In this document: piece after piece, positions 12,470 through 33,653 of the stretch
How positions within the stretch are numbered: the first letter of the stretch is position 1
How the letters are laid out: each line of letters starts with the position of its first letter
From: Methanomicrobiales archaeon HGW-Methanomicrobiales-6
GTDB taxonomy: Archaea > Halobacteriota > Methanomicrobia > Methanomicrobiales > Methanoculleaceae
Assembly: GCA_002839575.1 (NCBI GenBank)
Contig: PGYH01000018.1
Coordinates: forward strand, 9,011-48,964
Length of the DNA: 39,954 nt
Direction: 5' to 3'
Translations under genes and position numbers: made by a program
Notes under the pieces: generated by a model
Databases searched by the model: none
Seen by the model: the letters and a program-made list of their open reading frames with translations, nothing else
What the model was told of the DNA's origin: nothing

Positions 12470-13483
12470 CTATGGTAGCGGCCCTTCTCCGGCATCCCAG
12501 AGATCCCGTCCGCGATCGGTGACGTCCCCCGGGAGATCTACGAGTTCGATGGGGTATGGGGCGAAGAACGACTGGTTCATCAGGTACGGTTCCTGGAACC
12601 GGATCACCCACGACCGGAGCAGGCCGCGGGGTTCGGCCAGCGTGGCATGGCCGTTTTTATAGCGGTCAATCAGCCTGATGCAGTAGGCTCTCTCCTCGTC
12701 TGAGATGCGGTCGGCGAAGTATCCGAGGGCGTGCAGGAGAACGTTGACGTTGCCGGTATACCGGGGAGCCCGTGCGAGCGCGATAGAGAGCATCCGGCGA
12801 TATTGGAGGAAGAGTTCTCCCGGTTCAACCGCTGCCCGGGACGCGACGAGCCGTCCCATCTCCCGCAGCATCTTCTGGCTCAAGGCGAGCAGGAGGAGTT
12901 TGTTCTCCGCGTGGAACTGCACGAGGGCTTCCCGATTTCGGGTCTCCTCGACACCCCGGAACGCCGCCAGGGTAAAGATTGCGGAGAGGAAGTGGTCGCG
13001 GATCCGCTGATTGTTGAGGCGGAGTTCGTCCTCGACGGGAAGGTCCGGGTACCGCTTCAGCACCTCGCGGGCGAAGAAGCCTGCGGACTTTGCTATCGCC
13101 GCGGACTTCTCCATCGACGGGTACACCCGCACGTTCCGGGTTCCGGAGGTTGGGGAGCCGCCTTTGAGGATAAACCCGTCGATCGGGGGCAGGGGATCGA
13201 GAAACCCGGCTGCAAAAGCGGACATCTCGGCAGTGACGTCCCGCCCGGTAGCCGGCTGCACAAGGCGATCGGAACCGCCTGTCCGGACAATCCTGACGGT
13301 CGAGCGGGGGATCCCGAGCCCGATCTCGACCTCCGGGCAGACCGGGATGCAGTCAGCGTACTCCCGCAGGTGTGCCACCGTGGGGGAGGGTATCTTCGAG
13401 CCGTCGTAGCGGCACGGGTCGAACTCGATGCAGCGGCTGACGACGAGGCGGGGGCGCGGGTATTCTCGGGTCATGGGGTTCAC
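12470..13483 (-). CDS. DUF523 and DUF1722 (YbgA-like) two-domain protein
   Basis: The 337-residue protein joins two uncharacterised domains. Residues about 5-155 match DUF523: RPRLVVSRCIEFDPCRYDG, HLREYADCIPVCPEVEIGLG, IPRSTVRI and FILKGGSPTSGT, with conserved cysteines that may bind metal. Residues about 190-310 match DUF1722/YbgA: LVQFHAENKLLLLALSQKML and NVNVLLHALGYF, with SWVIRFQEPYLMNQSFFAPYP at the end. The same fusion is known in bacteria and methanogens. A role in DNA repair or metal chemistry has been suggested but not settled. ATG at 13483 or 13474 (MTREYPRP) could start it. The methyltransferase follows on the same strand. Confidence 0.88.
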   Translation of the reverse strand: MNPMTREYPRPRLVVSRCIEFDPCRYDGSKIPSPTVAHLREYADCIPVCPEVEIGLGIPRSTVRIVRTGGSDRLVQPATGRDVTAEMSAFAAGFLDPLPPIDGFILKGGSPTSGTRNVRVYPSMEKSAAIAKSAGFFAREVLKRYPDLPVEDELRLNNQRIRDHFLSAIFTLAAFRGVEETRNREALVQFHAENKLLLLALSQKMLREMGRLVASRAAVEPGELFLQYRRMLSIALARAPRYTGNVNVLLHALGYFADRISDEERAYCIRLIDRYKNGHATLAEPRGLLRSWVIRFQEPYLMNQSFFAPYPIELVDLPGDVTDRGRDLWDAGEGPLP

Positions 13484-15163: not shown

Positions 15164-15553
15164 TCAGGAGAGCTGCTCGACGATATCCACGAATACGCCG
15201 GCCGGGTCTTTGAGGATGAAGTGCTTCTGGCCCCATTCTTCTTCGGTGTAGGGATACACGATCATCACGCCCTCGATCTTCTGCGCCTTCTCGTACTCTC
15301 TTCCGGCATCCCCGACCTCGTAGGTGACGATGATGCCCTTTCCGTCATACGTCTCGTGGAGAAACGGGGGCTGGTTCGAGAGGTTCGGTCTCATGAACCC
15401 GAGCTCGATGCCGTTTTCATGCTTTAACTGGATATACCAGTCTGCCTCAAAGACGATGTCGAAACCGAAGTGGTCGACGTAAAAGTCCCTGCACTCTTCG
15501 AGGTTCGGCGTGATGACGACGGGGTACTGTACGGATACATCTATCGGCTCCAT
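15164..15553 (-). CDS. VOC (glyoxalase/bleomycin-resistance) family protein
   Basis: The 129 residues form a single vicinal-oxygen-chelate module pair: VSVQYPVVITPNLEECRDFY, DHFGFDIVFEADWYIQLKH, then IVTYEVGDAGREYEKA and HFILKDPAGVFVDIVEQ. These are the N- and C-terminal beta-alpha-beta-beta-beta units. A conserved glutamate precedes the end (VDIVEQ). VOC proteins act as metal-dependent isomerases, dioxygenases or drug-binding proteins; the sequence does not decide which. It stands alone, leftward, between the CPBP protease and the PFL protein. Confidence 0.85.
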   Translation of the reverse strand: MEPIDVSVQYPVVITPNLEECRDFYVDHFGFDIVFEADWYIQLKHENGIELGFMRPNLSNQPPFLHETYDGKGIIVTYEVGDAGREYEKAQKIEGVMIVYPYTEEEWGQKHFILKDPAGVFVDIVEQLS

Positions 15554-26741: not shown

Positions 26742-26953
26742 ATGGTTTTCCACTTCCCTGGGAATCCGTGTCGGGTCCTCTGAAATGAGTCCCTCTCCGG
26801 GGTTACATTGCCGGTTCGAAGTAGTTTGGATCGGAAGTGGTTATAAAATGCGGGGAATATGGGGGGGTCGCCTGATGAGAATAGATGAATCTCAAAATCA
26901 GTCTTCATTTATCGGCAGAGATTTCCCAAAAACTGCAACGGAAATAAAAATGA

Positions 26954-26990
26954 TGGGCACGTCGAGATTCGAACTCGAGACCCCCGCCGG
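26954..26990 (-). pseudogene. tRNA 3'-end fragment (T arm and acceptor strand), possible attachment site
   Basis: Read leftward the DNA ends with a T arm (TCGAG stem, TTCGAAT loop, CTCGA stem) and the acceptor strand CGTGCCC plus discriminator A at 26954. A 5' partner (GGGCACG) is not found in the following bases, and the sequence beyond about 26990 does not fold as an anticodon arm. So only the 3' part of a tRNA is present, the part that integrating elements carry. It resembles the tRNA-Val attachment core further right but with a compensating change in the T stem, so it derives from another tRNA. The intact copy is not in the window. The surrounding gap 26742-27559 holds no other recognised feature apart from the small frames near 27247 and 27429-27524. 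Confidence 0.6.
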
Positions 26991-27246
26991 CGAATGAGTC
27001 GTCATTACGCCGGCAGTTTTCGATTCTGGCGCCTATAAGGGATTTGATGATTTTTCAAAAACCTTGTGTAATATAGAGAATAGCCTGGAGAAGGGGAACG
27101 GGGTTGATACCCTTTTGATCTCTACAAGGTCCATGTAGAAGGGTTTAAGCGGTTTTGCACTGTCGGGGACTCTGTGATATCAGAAACGACCTATAACGAT
27201 TATGTTAACTGACAGTCTACGTGGGGAAGTCAGATAAGAACTCCCG

Positions 27247-27405
27247 GTGATATCGAATTTTTATACTGACAATGAAATTAAATTGAGCGAGAAGTTGGGA
27301 AAAACCTTCGGGAAACCGAGGGGATACTTTGCCGGACGGTATCGCCCCAGCAAGAAAACAATCCACTCGCCTGAGCAGAGGAATTTAGCAAAGAATATCT
27401 TCTGA
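27247..27405 (+). CDS. Possible small basic protein (52 aa)
   Basis: A GTG-started frame encodes 52 residues (VISNFYTDNEIKLSEKLGKT, then GKPRGYFAGRYRPSKKTIHS and PEQRNLAKNIF). It is hydrophilic and Lys/Arg-rich, and reads more like protein than its shadows do. No ribosome binding site of note and no family. It may be a fragment of a decayed gene in this accessory stretch. A second short frame, 27429-27524 (31 residues, MQKELLGIPAQWNKLPQIFK), follows and is equally unproven. Confidence 0.25.
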   Translation: MISNFYTDNEIKLSEKLGKTFGKPRGYFAGRYRPSKKTIHSPEQRNLAKNIF

Positions 27406-27559
27406 ATAGTCAAAGAGGGATTGTGTCTATGCAAAAAGAGCTGTTAGGTATACCAGCGCAATGGAATAAACTTCCTCAAATCTTTAAAAACAATGATATG
27501 TTAGTCGCTGTGTCAGCCGTTTGAACATGCCGCTGGCCTGGAAAGGAAGTATTTATAGT

Positions 27560-28393
27560 ATGAACATGGGTAAACGGGTAAAAATTGTAGCCGTTGTCGT
27601 GGTTTGCGTACTATTTGATATCGTTCTTCATCTTGTTACAAGCGCATACAGTACTATGCCTGAGAATCCGAACTACAGCATAGTGGCAGCGTTGCTCGGG
27701 ACGGAGATTACTGTATCTCTCTGGGCGCTATTCTCTTTTTCCGGTGCTGCTTATGTTTATTGCCGCATCAGAAACGTGATTCCGGGAGAGGGAGTAAAGA
27801 AAGGGGTGCGGTACGGGTCTGCAATAGCGCTGATCTGGCTTTTTGCCATGCTGGAGGGGGTATCCCTATTTGGCAATCCAATTATTAACGAATTTGTGGT
27901 TGGCCTCAGTGATGCAATACCTGTTTTTTTAATGGCGATTCTATTGAGTTTGCTAAATGCTGAGAAAGGAGAGAATGCTGGGGTAAAGCCGTTTACTCTT
28001 CGACAGAAGATGATTGCCGTATCCATATTCACAGGGATATTCTTAGTTGGACGATACGCTGCATATGTCACAGAAGTGATCCAATCCGGATACCAGACAA
28101 GCCTGTTTTATACATTTTTCTGGACGCTCCTTATGGGTGCCTGTATTGGGGTAGTATGTATATTGCTCGGGAATATCGGAGATACGTTGTCCCTGGAACG
28201 TAGAGCAGCGAAATTTGGATTCCTGATTTTTGGAGTTAACTGGGCTACGTTCCTTCTTTTTATGCCCTTATTGTTTTCCGGCTATTTAATCGACGTGTTG
28301 TCCAGAATCATTATAGACACCCTGCTTGTAACGATCGGATATTACCTGACATTTAGTCCCAGCTCTGAAAGAAACAGCCTTAAATGTGGGTAA
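27560..28393 (+). CDS. Polytopic membrane protein of unknown function
   Basis: The 277-residue product has seven or eight hydrophobic helices: VAVVVVCVLFDIVLHLVTSA, IVAALLGTEITVSLWALFSF, AIALIWLFAMLEGVSLFG, IPVFLMAILLSLLNA, IAVSIFTGIFLVGRYAAYV, LFYTFFWTLLMGACIGVVCI and a long last pair. There is no recognised motif or family. ATG 27560 is chosen because GGAAG precedes it at a normal distance; ATG 27527 and TTG 27521 are in-frame alternatives. The gene is AT-richer than the chromosome and lies directly left of the integrated element. It could be chromosomal accessory DNA or part of an older integrant. Confidence 0.6.
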   Translation: MNMGKRVKIVAVVVVCVLFDIVLHLVTSAYSTMPENPNYSIVAALLGTEITVSLWALFSFSGAAYVYCRIRNVIPGEGVKKGVRYGSAIALIWLFAMLEGVSLFGNPIINEFVVGLSDAIPVFLMAILLSLLNAEKGENAGVKPFTLRQKMIAVSIFTGIFLVGRYAAYVTEVIQSGYQTSLFYTFFWTLLMGACIGVVCILLGNIGDTLSLERRAAKFGFLIFGVNWATFLLFMPLLFSGYLIDVLSRIIIDTLLVTIGYYLTFSPSSERNSLKCG

Positions 28394-29453
28394 ATTGCAC
28401 GATAACGTGGTTTCTGAATTCAAAAAAACACGCGCAAAATCAGTCCTAATGTACAAAAGCGAGCAGGAAAATGGGCTCGTCGTGATTCGAACACGAGATC
28501 TTCGCCGTGTGAAGGCAGAATTTGAAAATCCGGTTCAAAATGCGGTTTCTTCCAATGGTGTAACTCTTCAGTTTACCCGTGAAGAACTCCAGCACTATAC
28601 AGCCAGCAGAACCAAAGGGCTATCTGATAAATCTATCAGGTGGCTGCAAAAGTCTAGAGATATCCTCTGGGAAAAAACAAATGGTGAGTTATCCGCATCG
28701 ACACTTTCTGCCTTACGGGAATCTGTTTTGGATCTCTTTGGAAGTAGAGACTCTTGGTCGAAGGTATTGGGCTTTACTGTTGCCTTCCTGAAATATTTAT
28801 CAAAGGTAAACTTTGATCAACGCTATCGACATTTGGAAGTGCATCTAGAACTGCCAAAGGCTATTAGAGCGGTAAAACTGCTTACATCGCGTATAATCAC
28901 TACTGAAGATATTCAGAACACTATCAAAGCCATTGATAGCGCCGATGACCTTTCCAGCGAGAAGAAATTGAACTACAAGGGCATGGTAATGTTTCTTGCT
29001 TACTCCGGTCAGAGGGTGCTTACAGGCGCGCAGATTACGGTAAGTCAATTTAAGGAAGCACTAAGACATGCCCCACCTGTTCTGACTGTAGAGGCTCACC
29101 AGGATAAGATTAGACTTCAGCATTACGTGCCCATTCATCCTGCCGTAATTCCGGTCCTTCAAGAAGTAATAGAAGGAAAGCAAGAGGATGAGGTTGCCTT
29201 TGATTACAATGGGCTTATGCGATGGCTGAAGGAAAACCCTGTTCCACTTGCCAGAATCAACGGTAAGATAGAACTGAAAGACTTAAGGAAGGCATTTGAG
29301 CAGATATCTGATGAAATTGGCTTTACTGATGCAAATAAAAACTTCATCATGTCGCATGGGGTTTCAAGCATCAATTGGCAGAGTTATAAGCAATTCTTAC
29401 CGGAGAATGTGTATAAGCGATACATGGAGTGTTGGGGAAAGGTATCCTTTTGA
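28386..29453 (+). CDS. SSV-type tyrosine integrase, C-terminal part (intC)
   Basis: This fragment holds the catalytic domain of a tyrosine recombinase, separated from its N-terminus by integration. True integrase sequence begins in the attachment repeat at 28472; the upstream part (28386-28471, GTG start) belongs to flanking DNA. Catalytic positions are the first arginine in MVMFLAYSGQRVLTGAQITV, the K-x-x-R box ELKDLRKAFEQI (in place of HxxR), the histidine in FIMSHGVSSINWQSY and the probable nucleophile in NVYKRYMECW. The SAM-like core-binding domain is at EELQHYTASRTKGLSDKSIR then WLQKSRDILWEK. When the element excises, the gene rejoins 33199-33569. In the integrated state this half has no native start codon and is probably inactive. 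Confidence 0.88.
   Translation: MGKLHDNVVSEFKKTRAKSVLMYKSEQENGLVVIRTRDLRRVKAEFENPVQNAVSSNGVTLQFTREELQHYTASRTKGLSDKSIRWLQKSRDILWEKTNGELSASTLSALRESVLDLFGSRDSWSKVLGFTVAFLKYLSKVNFDQRYRHLEVHLELPKAIRAVKLLTSRIITTEDIQNTIKAIDSADDLSSEKKLNYKGMVMFLAYSGQRVLTGAQITVSQFKEALRHAPPVLTVEAHQDKIRLQHYVPIHPAVIPVLQEVIEGKQEDEVAFDYNGLMRWLKENPVPLARINGKIELKDLRKAFEQISDEIGFTDANKNFIMSHGVSSINWQSYKQFLPENVYKRYMECWGKVSF
28472..28516. repeat. Left attachment repeat (attL), 45 bp
   Basis: Identical over 45 bases to 33525-33569. It contains the tRNA-Val T arm and acceptor strand but lacks the 5' half of the tRNA, so this is the displaced target copy. It is translated in the integrase frame as GLVVIRTRDLRRVKA. On its left, chromosome-side DNA is open in the same frame for about 40 codons. 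Confidence 0.93.
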
Positions 29454-29600
29454 CCAATACCCTTCATGTTCTCTAGCGCTCTATCCCCAATCCCCTTTCC
29501 TTCACGAATCTATGTCCCATTGGCAATAGACCTAATATGCGCGCATTTTTCCTAAAAATATTTTATATATACCTAAAATCGCCTGAAAAAATGAGAAGGG

Positions 29601-29609
29601 ATAAATATA
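29601..29609 (+). promoter_or_regulatory. TATA box of the lipoprotein gene
   Basis: ATAAATATA lies 22-30 bases before the ATG at 29631, so transcription would start at or beside the start codon and give a leaderless message. A second AT-rich stretch (TTTTATATATA) lies about 30 bases further upstream. Confidence 0.55.
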
Positions 29610-29630
29610 GTTTCCACATGATCTACATCC

Positions 29631-30488
29631 ATGCGCAAAATATTCTATTTGTTATTAGTGTTCGTGCTAGTTTTATTCGCTTGTAGTGCGGGTTGCACAT
29701 CTTCTACAACTAGATCGTCAGATGCATCGACCCCAAAGGAATATGTCCCGGTAATGGGTACTCACGCAACCCAGGTATCAACTCCCGTTCCAACACAAAC
29801 TTCACTTGCTTCCGACTTTAAGTATTCAGTTGGAGATGTGCTTGCTGAAGAAGATCCGGGTCATCAACAAGTGGGGTGGATTATTCTTGATTATCGGTCA
29901 GCAACCGACGAATATTTAACAAAATTAATATACAGAAATTCTACTGAAGAAACTTGGAAAGTAGTTCCTGGAGAAAATGCTACGTGGTCTGATAGAGTTA
30001 GTTTTCATGAATCATTGGCATCATGGACATATCATATAGATCAAGAAAATGTAAAAATAATATGGTCAACCCCAACTCCAACTGCAACCCCTGTGCCAAC
30101 TGTAACTTACCAGAATGGTGACTTGTGGATAGACATATCTCAATCAAGGAACAGGGTCGGAAACCTCGTGTTAGCATTGGCAGATGATGTAGATAATATA
30201 GATTTTCAATCGATGAAAAGCAATGGCGAAAAGCTAGAACAAACTGCACAAAGGGACTATAATACTATATCAAAATACCGTGTTTCCTCCGATTACCAAA
30301 ATTTAAAAACTAAATATCTTAGTTCACTGGATAAGGTGAAATATGCTGGTAAATACTGTAAAATGGCGGCAGACGAGTATCTTAACGGAAATGAGGATAA
30401 AAGCACTGAATATTTATATAAGGCTCAAGACTACATCGACAGTGCAACTCCGGATCTAGATGCAGTAGTAAAAGAAATGGGCTGGTAA
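29631..30488 (+). CDS. Secreted lipoprotein carried by the element
   Basis: The 285-residue protein starts with a signal peptide (MRKIFYLLLVFVLVLFACSA) ending at a lipobox-like SAGC, with Cys22 or Cys18 as lipid site. A Ser/Thr/Pro-rich linker follows, typical of archaeal surface proteins. Residues about 62-135 (FKYSVGDVLAEEDPGHQQVG then WIILDYRSATDEYLTKLIYR) match a domain repeated in methanogen surface lipoproteins, with the usual VGDVI...ILDY...Y....I.RN pattern. A second TPTPTATPVPT linker leads to a helical C-terminal domain (about 165-285, NLVLALADDVDNIDFQSMKS). Its role on the element is unknown; it could alter the cell surface, for example blocking another virus. A seven-T terminator follows. 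Confidence 0.8.
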   Translation: MRKIFYLLLVFVLVLFACSAGCTSSTTRSSDASTPKEYVPVMGTHATQVSTPVPTQTSLASDFKYSVGDVLAEEDPGHQQVGWIILDYRSATDEYLTKLIYRNSTEETWKVVPGENATWSDRVSFHESLASWTYHIDQENVKIIWSTPTPTATPVPTVTYQNGDLWIDISQSRNRVGNLVLALADDVDNIDFQSMKSNGEKLEQTAQRDYNTISKYRVSSDYQNLKTKYLSSLDKVKYAGKYCKMAADEYLNGNEDKSTEYLYKAQDYIDSATPDLDAVVKEMGW

Positions 30489-30512
30489 AGCCTCTTCTAA
30501 AATTTTGTAAAA

Positions 30513-30519
30513 TTTTTTT
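30513..30519 (+). terminator. T-run terminator after the lipoprotein
   Basis: Seven T residues, 25 bases after the stop codon, with an AAAATTTT-rich lead-in. The typical archaeal stop signal. Confidence 0.5.
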
Positions 30520-30593
30520 GAGCCACTTAACTGGGGTGTGCAAAGGCCGCCCCCCTCACCACATTTTGGAAACCGATTCTAACATCAAGAAAC

Positions 30594-30888
30594 GTGTAAG
30601 GCAACCATATCGCACATTACACCAATGAGGAGAGTGTAAGAGGAAGAGTGTAAGCAAGATCACTGAAGCGGTTGTATTGGCTTGATGTGAAGCCCTGTGC
30701 TCATGTTGTTACACAGGTAAGGAATCCGGCTTACAAGTTCATCGCCCATAGTAGGCGATGCTTACACATTTGTTATTCTTACCTTACGCTCCATTGCTCG
30801 TATCAGAAACCTTTTGATCTCTCGAATTTGCTATCCGTTTATACACTCCAGCATCCTGCTTTTGAGTTGAGGCATGTTACTGTGTAAC
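30594..30888. repeat. Iteron-like GTGTAAG motifs, possible origin of the element
   Basis: The 7-mer GTGTAAG occurs at 30594-30600, 30634-30640 and 30648-30654, and its complement CTTACAC at 30761-30767. Partial copies (ATTACAC, GTTACAC, CTTACA) fall between them. The array ends with a palindrome, GTTAC-TGT-GTAAC, at 30876-30888. The region is noncoding and lies on the SF3 helicase side of the element. Clustered short repeats plus AT-rich DNA beyond (31120-31255) are usual for replication origins of small plasmids. The 30489-31255 gap holds nothing else beyond a weak open frame at 30839-31036. Confidence 0.45.
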
Positions 30889-31036
30889 CACGCCTAATAG
30901 CGGTGTGATTTCCTTTCGATATTGCCCCATTGTTCTTGCTTACCGTTTTAGACCGCAATAATCTGTTTGATTCAATGATTGCTTTGTGTGAGATCTCTTC
31001 AATATTTAACGCTGAACTATAGGTATCATATCTCAT
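30839..31036 (-). CDS. Doubtful small ORF inside the element (65 aa)
   Basis: An ATG at 31036 opens 65 residues (MRYDTYSSALNIEEISHKAI then IESNRLLRSKTVSKN). The N-terminal half is helix-prone and charged and could be a small DNA-binding protein. There is an AGAAGAAA stretch ahead of the start but no recognised family, and the 3' half runs across the origin-like repeats. Listed because small elements often have one such gene. Confidence 0.22.
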   Translation of the reverse strand: MRYDTYSSALNIEEISHKAIIESNRLLRSKTVSKNNGAISKGNHTAIRRGYTVTCLNSKAGCWSV

Positions 31037-31255
31037 TTTCTTCTGAATTAAACTTCAGTGCCGTTTTTTTGAACGGGGTGAGTTATATGCATGTGTAGGA
31101 TAGTAAATCTGATTTTAATCCCCTGATTCATAAGAAGAAGCAAGTATTTCACCCCCTTATTGAATCTGTTCCAGTATATGGGTATTTTACATTTCAAAAA
31201 TAATATTGATGTTATATAATATATTGATAGAATTATATAATGCTGAAATACTCTG

Positions 31256-32806
31256 TTAATTTGCAGAAATCTCCTCTAATTCTTGAGATACCCTAATACC
31301 ACTTGGCTGAGATCCTGAAGTGGCTCTTTTTAATCGGGCCGCAACAATATACTCTATCTGTTCTCCCCTTGATCCTATTCTCTTCGTATTAAACCCGTTT
31401 TCATTGAGTTTCCCTCTGAATTTGCGTTTACTTGTAGGTCCTTCGTTTGCTGCCATACAATCTGTAAGGTAAAGTTGATAGGTGTCTTCAAAGGGGAGTA
31501 TATGGTTGTAAATCTCAATTGATTCCATGTCGTCGCTGATTTCATCATCAAACTCAAGATTGGCAGAGATGAACCGGTAACAACTATCGGACTGGTTCTG
31601 CCATACCTCCCTTGTTTCATCCACATTTTTATCTTTAATGAGGCCTTGTTCAAGCAAAATATCAATGCTATCCAGGCATAGATTCAACATAGCCGAGAGA
31701 TTTTCTTCGGTTGTTAATTCCTCTAGGAAGCCGATCTTTACTTTAAACTGATTCGGGAACTCAATAAGATAAAGGCGCTCGTAGAAGGGGCTACTATTCT
31801 CACCTATCTCCGGCAACTTATTGCACCCGAAGACCAAGAGGGCACGATTTCTTAATGAATATGGGTCTTGATACTTCCGTTCAACGGTAATTGTGTCATC
31901 ACCTGTTAGCGTTTTAAACAGTCCTATGTCTGGGATGTAATTACCGGGTAAATCTCCGTAGATGTTGGCAATTTTCCCATCAATCTCCGCAAGCCTGAAT
32001 CCTCCCTTGCAGAGGTCTTGCATACTCACGTGTGAAACATTTTCCTGCCCAAAGAATATGGTTGAAAATTCAAGGAACGTAGACTTTCCATTACCCCCAC
32101 TCCTGTTATAGAGTATATACGCTTTCTTCATTGGTTCATGGATGAGGGCTTGTGCATGCATCTGTATGAGCAGATCAACGCTACCTGCGTGAGTGAGTGA
32201 CTTGAGGTAATCGAGTACTGTTGTGGGGTCCGCATCGTGCTTGTATGATGGTGTAATGCAGTAAGTAAAACCAAACACTGGGGAATGCTCGAATAATTCC
32301 CTGGACTCAATATGCAGAGTGCCATTTCTTACGGGTATAAACTCCTTACAATGATTGAATGGGTATTCACTTACAGACGTAGATTTGATAAGCCTGAAGA
32401 GAATCTCTGCCACAAGGCTGTGAATCCCCTTTTTGCGAGTATATCCCTTTGATTTAAGAAGATTGATGATGAATCGTTCAATGTTGTTGTTGTCGGGGCG
32501 ATACTTCATCGAATTCCAGTCATAGACATAGGGAACACCATTGAAAGTTACTATGGCTAGAGTTTTAGCTACATGCTCTTCTATTGCATCGAATATTGGG
32601 TGTTTCTTGTTGTTATCATCAACTTCAATGAAGTCAAGGGTCGGTGAATGCTTTCGGTATTGTTCAATTGCTTCTGAAAGAGTAACCATGTCGCCGATGC
32701 TGATTTTATCAGAGTTTTGAACGATATCTGCGTTTAAATATACTGTACTGAGATGAGTGAATAGTGTGCTCATCGAATTATCAATTATAATTTTATTTTC
32801 GAACAT
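31256..32806 (-). CDS. SF3 helicase / primase-helicase of the element
   Basis: The 516-residue protein is a superfamily 3 helicase of the D5/P4 primase type, used by viruses and plasmids to start replication. The D5_N-like region spans about residues 85-225. Walker A is SGGNGKST (about 236-243), Walker B lies in EIDGKIANIYGDLPG (about 275-289), and sensor/motif C in ALLVFGCNKLPEIGEN (about 331-346). FYERLYLIEFPNQF is the arginine-finger segment. The C-terminal TSKRKFRGKLNENGFNTKRI resembles the winged helix found after D5 helicases. No primase active site is evident, so a separate or host primase is probably used. ATG 32806 is chosen for its GGATGATC; ATGs at 32815 and 32866 are alternatives. 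It is the only replication gene on the element. Confidence 0.9.
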   Translation of the reverse strand: MFENKIIIDNSMSTLFTHLSTVYLNADIVQNSDKISIGDMVTLSEAIEQYRKHSPTLDFIEVDDNNKKHPIFDAIEEHVAKTLAIVTFNGVPYVYDWNSMKYRPDNNNIERFIINLLKSKGYTRKKGIHSLVAEILFRLIKSTSVSEYPFNHCKEFIPVRNGTLHIESRELFEHSPVFGFTYCITPSYKHDADPTTVLDYLKSLTHAGSVDLLIQMHAQALIHEPMKKAYILYNRSGGNGKSTFLEFSTIFFGQENVSHVSMQDLCKGGFRLAEIDGKIANIYGDLPGNYIPDIGLFKTLTGDDTITVERKYQDPYSLRNRALLVFGCNKLPEIGENSSPFYERLYLIEFPNQFKVKIGFLEELTTEENLSAMLNLCLDSIDILLEQGLIKDKNVDETREVWQNQSDSCYRFISANLEFDDEISDDMESIEIYNHILPFEDTYQLYLTDCMAANEGPTSKRKFRGKLNENGFNTKRIGSRGEQIEYIVAARLKRATSGSQPSGIRVSQELEEISAN

Positions 32807-33198
32807 TATGATCATCCGAATTTTTTTGATTGAGCAATCATTATGGGAAAGTAGGCGGATAGCCACAATTTAAAAGAGCAATTTTCCTACAATAACTGCA
32901 TATAATAATTTGATGTATTTACTATTATATCTTTCGATATAATCAGATTGATATTAGGTGAGATAAATAAATTACCGTGCGTTTGGGGCGTCATATTGCC
33001 TTTTCCTACAATCAAATTATTGCCCCTAAATCCTATCAAAACTATATGGTTTAACACCCTATCTTTCTTCAGATGATGTTTAGTATAGGCTGAAAAAGTT
33101 AGTATGATTTTCGTGCAGTTTTACTCAAAGGAAATGGCTTCTTTTCCTTCTGGTTAAGAGACAGTAGTTTTATAATGTTTTACAACTGATGAAGGGAT
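32807..33198. promoter_or_regulatory. Divergent promoter region between SF3 helicase and intN
   Basis: This 392-base AT-rich gap separates the two outward-facing genes. On the minus strand TTTTAAAT at about 32869-32876 is a TATA candidate for the helicase. On the plus strand TTTTATAAT at about 33168-33176 serves intN. The 12-mer TTTTCCTACAAT occurs at 32882-32893 and again at 33001-33012, a possible binding site for an element regulator. No gene is visible in the gap. Confidence 0.4.
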
Positions 33199-33579
33199 AT
33201 GAAACTCATCGGAAGATCCAAAATAAGCAAGTTAAATCCAAAGCCCAATATCACATACCCTATTCTCCGCTTACCTCAAGATCAAGCAGATGTTATCGGT
33301 GAAATGGCCTACATTTATGAAACAGAGTGCAATGGTCGGCGCGCATTCCTTGTCATGCTCGATGAAATTGACCCTGCTGCATGTGATGTTATACAACTTG
33401 ATAGCAAAAATGATCTCGAAACTCGCGTTAATCGCTTAGAATCGAAGATGGATGAGATAGTCAGAGTTATTGGGGAGAATGGCAATAAATCTGAGTCAAA
33501 ACCTGAAAAGAAGCGGTTAACGAGTGGGCTCGTCGTGATTCGAACACGAGATCTTCGCCGTGTGAAGGCGACGTCATAA
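33199..33579 (+). CDS. SSV-type integrase, N-terminal part (intN)
   Basis: The 126-residue fragment is the front of the split integrase. It has the N-terminal segment seen in methanogen integrases (NITYPILRLPQDQADVIGEM then YIYETECNGRRAFLVML), followed by a short coiled coil (ETRVNRLESKMDEIVRVIGE). The last residues GLVVIRTRDLRRVKA are the antisense of tRNA-Val, shared with the left part of the gene. The final two codons (TS) and the stop lie in the tRNA outside the repeat. TGAAGGGAT precedes ATG 33199. Because intN keeps its promoter, a truncated protein may still be made after integration. Confidence 0.87.
   Translation: MKLIGRSKISKLNPKPNITYPILRLPQDQADVIGEMAYIYETECNGRRAFLVMLDEIDPAACDVIQLDSKNDLETRVNRLESKMDEIVRVIGENGNKSESKPEKKRLTSGLVVIRTRDLRRVKATS
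33525..33569. repeat. Right attachment repeat (attR), 45 bp
   Basis: Identical to 28472-28516. It restores the tRNA-Val gene at this end, so integration does not damage the tRNA. The match ends inside the anticodon stem. Confidence 0.93.
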
Positions 33580-33598
33580 CCAGCTAGACCACGAGCCC
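33525..33598 (-). tRNA. tRNA-Val(CAC)
   Basis: Read leftward the 74-base gene folds as a normal cloverleaf. The acceptor GGGCTCG pairs with CGAGCCC, with discriminator A at 33525. The D arm is GTC-TAGCTGGTTAT-GAC. The anticodon stem TCGCC/GGCGA encloses the loop TTCACAC, whose anticodon CAC (33564-33562) reads GUG. The T arm is TCGTG-TTCGAAT-CACGA. CCA is not encoded. It is the integration target of the element on its left, which supplies the 3' part. Confidence 0.95.
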
Positions 33599-33600
33599 CA

Positions 33601-33653
33601 TGCATCGACCGGGAATTGAACCCGGGCTATTGGCACCACTAGACCATCGATGC
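33601..33653 (-). pseudogene. tRNA-Gly-like gene lacking the anticodon arm
   Basis: The 53-base sequence begins and ends like an archaeal tRNA-Gly: acceptor GCATCGA pairs fully with TCGATGC, discriminator A at 33601, and the T arm is CCGGG-TTCAATT-CCCGG. The D arm start TGGTCTAGTGG is normal, but it is followed directly by TGCCAATAGC and the T arm. The 3' part of the D arm and most of the anticodon arm (about 20 bases) are missing, so it cannot decode. GCCAATAG looks like the 3' strand of an anticodon stem, suggesting an internal deletion. It lies 2 bases upstream of tRNA-Val and shares its promoter. Confidence 0.8.

Follow-up and report, generated by a model that had tools for sequence, protein, structure and literature searches.

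The window analysed here, a stretch of 39,954 nucleotides from contig PGYH01000018.1 of Methanomicrobiales archaeon HGW-Methanomicrobiales-6, carries at positions 28472-33524 a segment that is very probably a small Methanoculleus element, plasmid-like or a satellite, which integrated in the SSV-type mode and whose integrase gene is split. Comparison of this integrase with those of related elements leads us to favour, with some reserve, the view that self-splitting archaeal integrases are not one lineage and that the attachment (att) site within the gene acts as a joint through which elements swap N-terminal and catalytic modules of unlike origin, the driving force being repeated and tandem insertion into the same tRNA gene. 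A second catalytic lineage, negative for the Pfam domain PF16795, would have adopted the split architecture among Methanomicrobiales, related archaea from bogs and genomes akin to Archaeoglobus, and swaps of the whole integrase cassette would shift one element core from a tRNA-Val target to the RNase P RNA gene.

The element is bounded by attL (28472-28516) and attR (33525-33569), a perfect direct repeat (45/45 bp, spacing 5,053) that is present in exactly two copies and whose extension fails by even one base on both sides. The repeat covers the 3' part of tRNA-Val(CAC), starting at the discriminator base and reaching into the anticodon stem, and attR lies within the reconstituted target gene, which is complete after integration (33525-33597, minus strand, by base pairing; 33524-33598, minus strand, according to ARAGORN). 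An earlier, sequence-only reading of this DNA had described a 5,053-bp element between such repeats, and its coordinates and arithmetic are correct to the base. The GC content is 39.8% within the element and 59.3% and 63.2% in its flanks. Sequence related to the tRNA-Val/htpX region was present in 35 of the 35 Methanoculleus genomes searched, and in one Methanoculleus (G062) the left flank of the window leads to a single 45-bp copy and then to the tRNA gene, the repeat region being identical. This is the empty tRNA-Val site with one repeat copy that the sequence-only reading had anticipated and, together with the complete tRNA-Val gene of the window, it indicates that the targeted RNA gene is restored by integration.

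When the element is closed to a circle, a single att site lies inside the recombinase gene, where it is read as GLVVIRTRDLRRVK; in the integrated state this gene is in two pieces, and the tRNA-Val gene has been rebuilt, with its 3' part present twice. The N-terminal part, int(N) (33199-33569, plus strand), ends in the right repeat copy, the integrated frame running on to a stop at 33577-33579 within the tRNA gene, 10 bases past the repeat. The core-binding and catalytic part, int(C) (28517-29453, plus strand), is an open frame leaving the left copy. Joining both (371 + 937 nt) yields 1,308 nt encoding 435 residues with zero internal stops, which reproduces the prediction of the sequence-only reading and places att inside an integrase coding sequence that is split on integration. 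The Int(C) frame also stays open leftward of the repeat, with an ATG at 28452 and a GTG at 28386, and the integrated Int(C) fragment could start in host sequence at the ATG. This suicidal anatomy is of a kind already known from other archaea. SSV-type ("suicidal") integration of the window element, as proposed earlier, is well supported by the repeat and the rejoined frame, by the empty site of G062 and by at least 16 relatives of the same anatomy.

The catalytic half departs from what is described for such enzymes. PF16795 (Phage_integr_3) is the domain given for the suicidal families, for which a single origin has been inferred (PMC8371274). A Pfam scan gave zero match between the window protein and PF16795, and Int(C) matched PF00589 below cut-off (E 2e-4). 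Among 12 members of the Int(C) family, PF00589 was matched with E values up to 1.4e-6 and PF16795 by three (best E 0.002), to be compared with 1.5e-38 for PF16795 in the Int(C) of G086. Residues R290, K321, R381 and Y414 of the rejoined protein are invariant in nine rejoined proteins, equivalent residues being kept in the 12 Int(C), and follow the R...K...xxxR...(H)...Y pattern of tyrosine recombinase catalytic residues, with Y414 assigned as the nucleophile from spacing. Furthermore, an AlphaFold model of Int(C) (predicted local distance difference test, pLDDT, 88.5) has the tyrosine recombinase catalytic fold, its best match in the PDB being the archaeal Xer 4a8e (E 7.4e-6), with lambda integrase, the Tn1549 integrase and Cre also matched; the SSV1 integrase is absent among the 50 fold matches listed. 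The Int(C) profile had no match when run against PDB sequences. No relatives of Int(C) were found in phage or plasmid records, nor in IMG/VR scans with the window protein and with the family profile; the PF16795-type integrase of G086 does match pT26-2, SSV1 and Archaeoglobus proviruses. Judged by its sequence and modelled fold, the window enzyme is a tyrosine recombinase of suicidal architecture outside the Pfam domain of the described suicidal families and, on this reading, Int(C) would represent a second, PF16795-negative catalytic lineage using the split-gene architecture. As for the other half, members of Int(N) had no match in Pfam; an AbrB-like fold suspected from the sequence was left unsupported, the Int(N) model (pLDDT 79) being without significant match in the PDB.

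About 18 elements with the new Int(C) were found, in Methanomicrobiales, in metagenome-assembled genomes (MAGs) from bogs and in an Archaeoglobus-containing family, and all those tested rejoin in frame. Their targets are tRNA-Val, Asp, Glu, Pro and Arg genes and the RNase P RNA gene. Eleven repeat-delimited elements (repeats of 42-55 bp, sizes of 5.1-14.8 kb) were picked without selection on frame, the chance of being in frame being about 1/3 for each; closed as circles, all 11 restore one open frame across att, at tRNA-Val(CAC), tRNA-Val(TAC), tRNA-Asp(GTC), tRNA-Glu(CTC) or the RNase P RNA gene. One premature stop is found within the Int(C) of G203. A 14.8-kb relative occupies tRNA-Val in Methanoculleus sediminis S3Fa (G056). 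Outside Methanomicrobiales, in the family that includes Archaeoglobus sp. GB_MAG3_049, frames are restored in six of six repeat-delimited elements with the new Int(C), at tRNA-Val, tRNA-Pro and tRNA-Arg, and also in a seventh (G261), whose exact repeat is short (19 bp). Further examples of the split anatomy with a PF16795-type catalytic part are provided by G119 and G027.

The in-gene att site looks like a joint for swapping integrase halves, because Int(N) and Int(C) types pair differently among elements. In G086, an Int(N) 54% identical to that of the window (the int(N) of G098 being likewise at 54%) is paired with a PF16795 Int(C). G098 has an Int(C) of the new type, and its comparison with G086 reveals 53% identity for Int(N) and 42% for a 614-residue ATPase, with no detectable match between the Int(C) and a DNA similarity that stops at the att site. 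In G119, too, the Int(C) is of the PF16795 type and the Int(N) is homologous (E 1.5e-9). Conversely, in the Archaeoglobus-containing family the Int(N) that accompanies the new Int(C) is of another kind, in some cases similar to CcdA/ribbon-helix-helix (RHH) proteins (best E 8e-8). The simplest reading of these sequences would be an exchange of modules at att or close to it. A route to such exchange can be seen in the tandem array of L172 (see below), where the N half of one element adjoins the C half of the next across a common att; two int(N) also lie side by side in G193, and leftover C-terminal stubs are found in G071.

A comparison with G071 (Methanoculleus sp. SM3-B2) extends this picture to whole integrase cassettes. 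Positions 30072-33149 of the window (3,078 bp) have a counterpart of 99.6% identity in this genome, the helicase being identical over 536/536 residues, and the chromosomal tRNA-htpX regions of both genomes are about 87% identical; the element has therefore moved recently. Instead of tRNA-Val, the G071 core occupies the RNase P RNA gene at its 3' end, with a repeat of 48 bp and a complete match to Rfam RF00373 (1-288), and it has a distinct integrase of the same family, whose Int(C) is 38% identical to that of the window. Both elements cease to be similar some 50 bp before int(N) begins, and only C-terminal stubs of older integrases are found on the other side. These alignments indicate that the integrase cassette has been exchanged between the window and G071 cores and that the target changed along with it. 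The G071 stubs, at L047:10431-10505 and 12845-12920, both begin near codons for LPENVYKRYMECW, just past the catalytic Tyr.

Several observations weigh against this interpretation of the element and its integrase. An hhalign comparison of the new Int(C) with PF16795 returned a probability of 49% (E 1.8e-4), the profile of the XerA control being too shallow for a fair comparison, and the weak similarity of Int(C) to PF16795 in Pfam leaves room for one old, strongly diverged lineage. A fourth combination, an RHH-like N-terminal part with a PF16795 catalytic part in G027, depends on a weak match of the former (E 0.21). Furthermore, no helper integrase is evident in the window genome, which is metagenome-assembled (205 contigs, 87.6% complete) and contains no other match to the integrase, no match to PF16795 and, above cut-off for PF00589, XerA alone (125 bits). 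The new Int(C) might then be a fast-evolving branch of PF16795, the split gene having arisen once and G086 and G098 having diverged without any exchange of halves. This scenario, which we regard as a minority possibility, would account for the split architecture, the tRNA targets and the homologous Int(N) common to both kinds as well as for the weak profile matches, and is in line with the single origin argued for the suicidal families. However, G086 and G098 retain clear similarity in Int(N) and in the ATPase yet none in Int(C), the same Int(C) family is paired with unrelated Int(N), and the fold neighbours of Int(C) are XerA and lambda-type integrases.

The life cycle of such an element can be proposed as follows. 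The intact enzyme, made from the circle, would recombine attP, located in its own gene, with the tRNA-Val gene, and integration would separate int(N) from int(C) and thereby be switched off, making the process self-limiting; the helicase would replicate the circle. Exit may depend on an intact related integrase brought by an incoming element or, poorly, on residual Int(C) activity, in keeping with the weak recombination by Int(C) of SSV1 and SSV2 and with the trans-complementation described for TKV4 (PMC8371274). When two elements occupy one tRNA gene, the N half of one would abut the C half of the other across the shared att, and recombination there or in the neighbouring region, by a direction and mechanism that we infer, could generate new N/C pairings and new targets. 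It may be argued instead that the separated halves still work and that Int(C) translated from the ATG at 28452, with or without Int(N), excises the element, which would not be trapped. The frame open into the flank and the SSV1, SSV2 and TKV4 data would fit such a scheme, but the halves of IntSSV2 are reported not to interact, with much reduced activity (PMC8371274). The ATG lies in the flank and is therefore not a selected feature of the element. We consider this scheme unlikely.

The gene content bears on the nature of the element. Besides the integrase, it encodes a 536-residue P4/D5-type replication helicase (31256-32866, minus strand) with a Walker A motif SGGNGKST, which matches PF19263 (E 8e-20) and the PHROG 864 primase family (E 3e-60) and is similar to proteins of the Sulfolobus plasmids NC_001771 and NC_004853. 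No primase domain was recognised in Pfam and PHROG scans, so that only the helicase part of the primase-polymerase (prim-pol)/superfamily 3 helicase fusion typical of pRN-type plasmids is found. A predicted lipoprotein of 285 residues (29631-30488, plus strand), with a signal peptide and a Cys lipobox, has a C-terminal part 71% identical in the G071 element and no family above cut-off in a Pfam scan. Between both genes, about 770 bp without a convincing gene (30489-31255), nearly identical in G071 and in which no clear repeats were seen on inspection, may be a replication or partition region. An integrated satellite virus, rather than a plasmid, has been proposed for other small archaeal elements with a primase/helicase and an integrase (PMC4158269), and fuselloviruses integrate in the same mode. 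Such a nature appears improbable here, since no capsid, packaging or other virion genes were recognised among the open reading frames (ORFs) of the element with Pfam and PHROG, and since the helicase resembles those of small Sulfolobus plasmids. Finally, an assembly artefact or a chance repeat can be practically dismissed: the fragmented, incomplete assembly and the odd 18-nt deletion in the adjoining tRNA-Gly gene would speak for it, but the same anatomy occurs across many independent assemblies, including the one-contig genomes G193, G196 and G201, and a repeat of this length, together with the recurrence of this anatomy in other elements, excludes chance.

The window element shares features with several known systems. 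As in the SSV1, pTN3 and pT26-2 suicidal families (PMC8371274), att lies in the gene, which is split on integration, the target is a tRNA gene, att spans 40-60 bp and the catalytic part is in the downstream fragment; in contrast to them, the catalytic domain has no PF16795 match and no similar phage or plasmid record. With the small integrative pRN-type plasmids of Sulfolobus (pXQ1, pSSVi and pXZ1), it has in common a small circle, one replication protein, an SSV-type integrase and a helicase similar to those of pRN1-like plasmids, but its host belongs to another archaeal phylum, its helicase lacks a recognisable prim-pol and its integrase is of another catalytic family. The integrase of a 6,970-bp S. 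islandicus plasmid matches the PF16795 type. Euryarchaeal split SSV-like integrases and small replication-protein elements in Methanosphaerula and others are represented by ArcVen-P3 and the small arCOG07809 elements (PMC4158269). The ArcVen-P3 integrase is, however, closest to that of Thermococcus prieurii virus 1, and the arCOG07809 proteins are set apart by their description as another primase/helicase (PMC4158269). XerA and the classical archaeal integrases (PF00589) offer the nearest fold and a weak Pfam match, but their gene is left unsplit by integration and their PF00589 score is clear, as for the host XerA.

The split-integrase mode and small integrative plasmids using it are thus already known. 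The sequence-only reading had taken SSV-type integration to be undescribed for a small element of this kind, which is right only in part, since small Sulfolobus plasmids with SSV-type integrases (PMC8371274) and SSV-like split integrases in Archaeoglobus (PMC4158269) have been reported; the most unusual points of the element, a catalytic half outside the described suicidal family and halves combined differently in different elements, were missed. As far as the literature searched shows, the new points are the second catalytic family, its spread among hosts that are Methanomicrobiales or resemble Archaeoglobus, the use of the RNase P RNA gene as a target and the N/C pairings found in nature. 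No suicidal integrases of Methanomicrobiales were found in the literature searched, subscription papers being outside it, and in the sections of PMC8371274 on integration sites the archaeal targets named are tRNA genes, intergenic regions and protein genes, the RNase P RNA gene not being among them. For archaeal mobile elements it is an open question how an integrase can persist and change target when it disrupts its own gene; chimeric integrases, from inversions between related Thermococcus elements, have been proposed as the answer (PMC8371274). With the N/C combinations, the homology break at att, a tandem array described below and the near-identical core with different integrases at two targets, the chimera idea can be tested in methanogens that are mesophiles and in some cases already in culture. 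Gene callers do not see frames that span att, and counts of such elements are therefore probably too low.

The tRNA-Val site of the window seems to have a longer history. Left of the element, an older att relic (26950-27008), about 85% similar to the 3' part of tRNA-Val, precedes a region (27009-28471) with a 290-residue membrane-protein ORF (27521-28393) and a weak trace of a PF16795-type int(C) (27117-27257, E 0.03). This segment recurs inside a 9.7-kb tRNA-Val-flanked region of G063 and, from these similarities, is most likely what remains of an earlier element at this tRNA gene rather than plain chromosome. Fragments of related int(N) adjoin the tRNA gene in G050 and G047, and such elements therefore arrived and decayed at tRNA-Val before. 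A comparable att relic followed by a PF16795-type fragment is found in G051. On the other side, beside the target, the tRNA-Gly(TCC) gene (33601-33653, minus strand) is without 18 nt including the anticodon loop. Each of the 22 Methanoculleus loci checked has the gene in full, and the window's own genome yielded no intact copy; the deletion reflects either a true pseudogene or an assembly error.

Two candidates for an unsplit integrase in a free circle were rejected. On a contig of a bog MAG (L172), a 3,081-bp element rejoins to a 540-residue integrase and the int(N) of its neighbour lies at the same att in another frame; the locus is a tandem array, and the candidate corresponded to the junction of two elements whose att is read in different frames. 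At L053 (G080:C5), an att copy joins an Int(N) of the window type to a PF16795 Int(C), out of frame and with no tRNA gene nearby, a junction that would fit a dead N/C hybrid, with a frameshift as a possible alternative.

Bog/SPRUCE MAGs seem heavily loaded with such elements, at least five Int(C)-family matches being counted in each of G232, G241, G250, G259, G267, G273 and G279, with five candidates scored per genome. In G201 (L048:645-686 and 15304-15345) the repeat corresponds to the 5' half of tRNA-Val(TAC), a type of target called unique to pTN3-like integrases in archaea (PMC8371274). The elements of G181 (L038) and G196 (L049) encode an extra small serine recombinase, assigned as resolvase-like by the appearance of its sequence, and the two proteins are 57% identical to each other.

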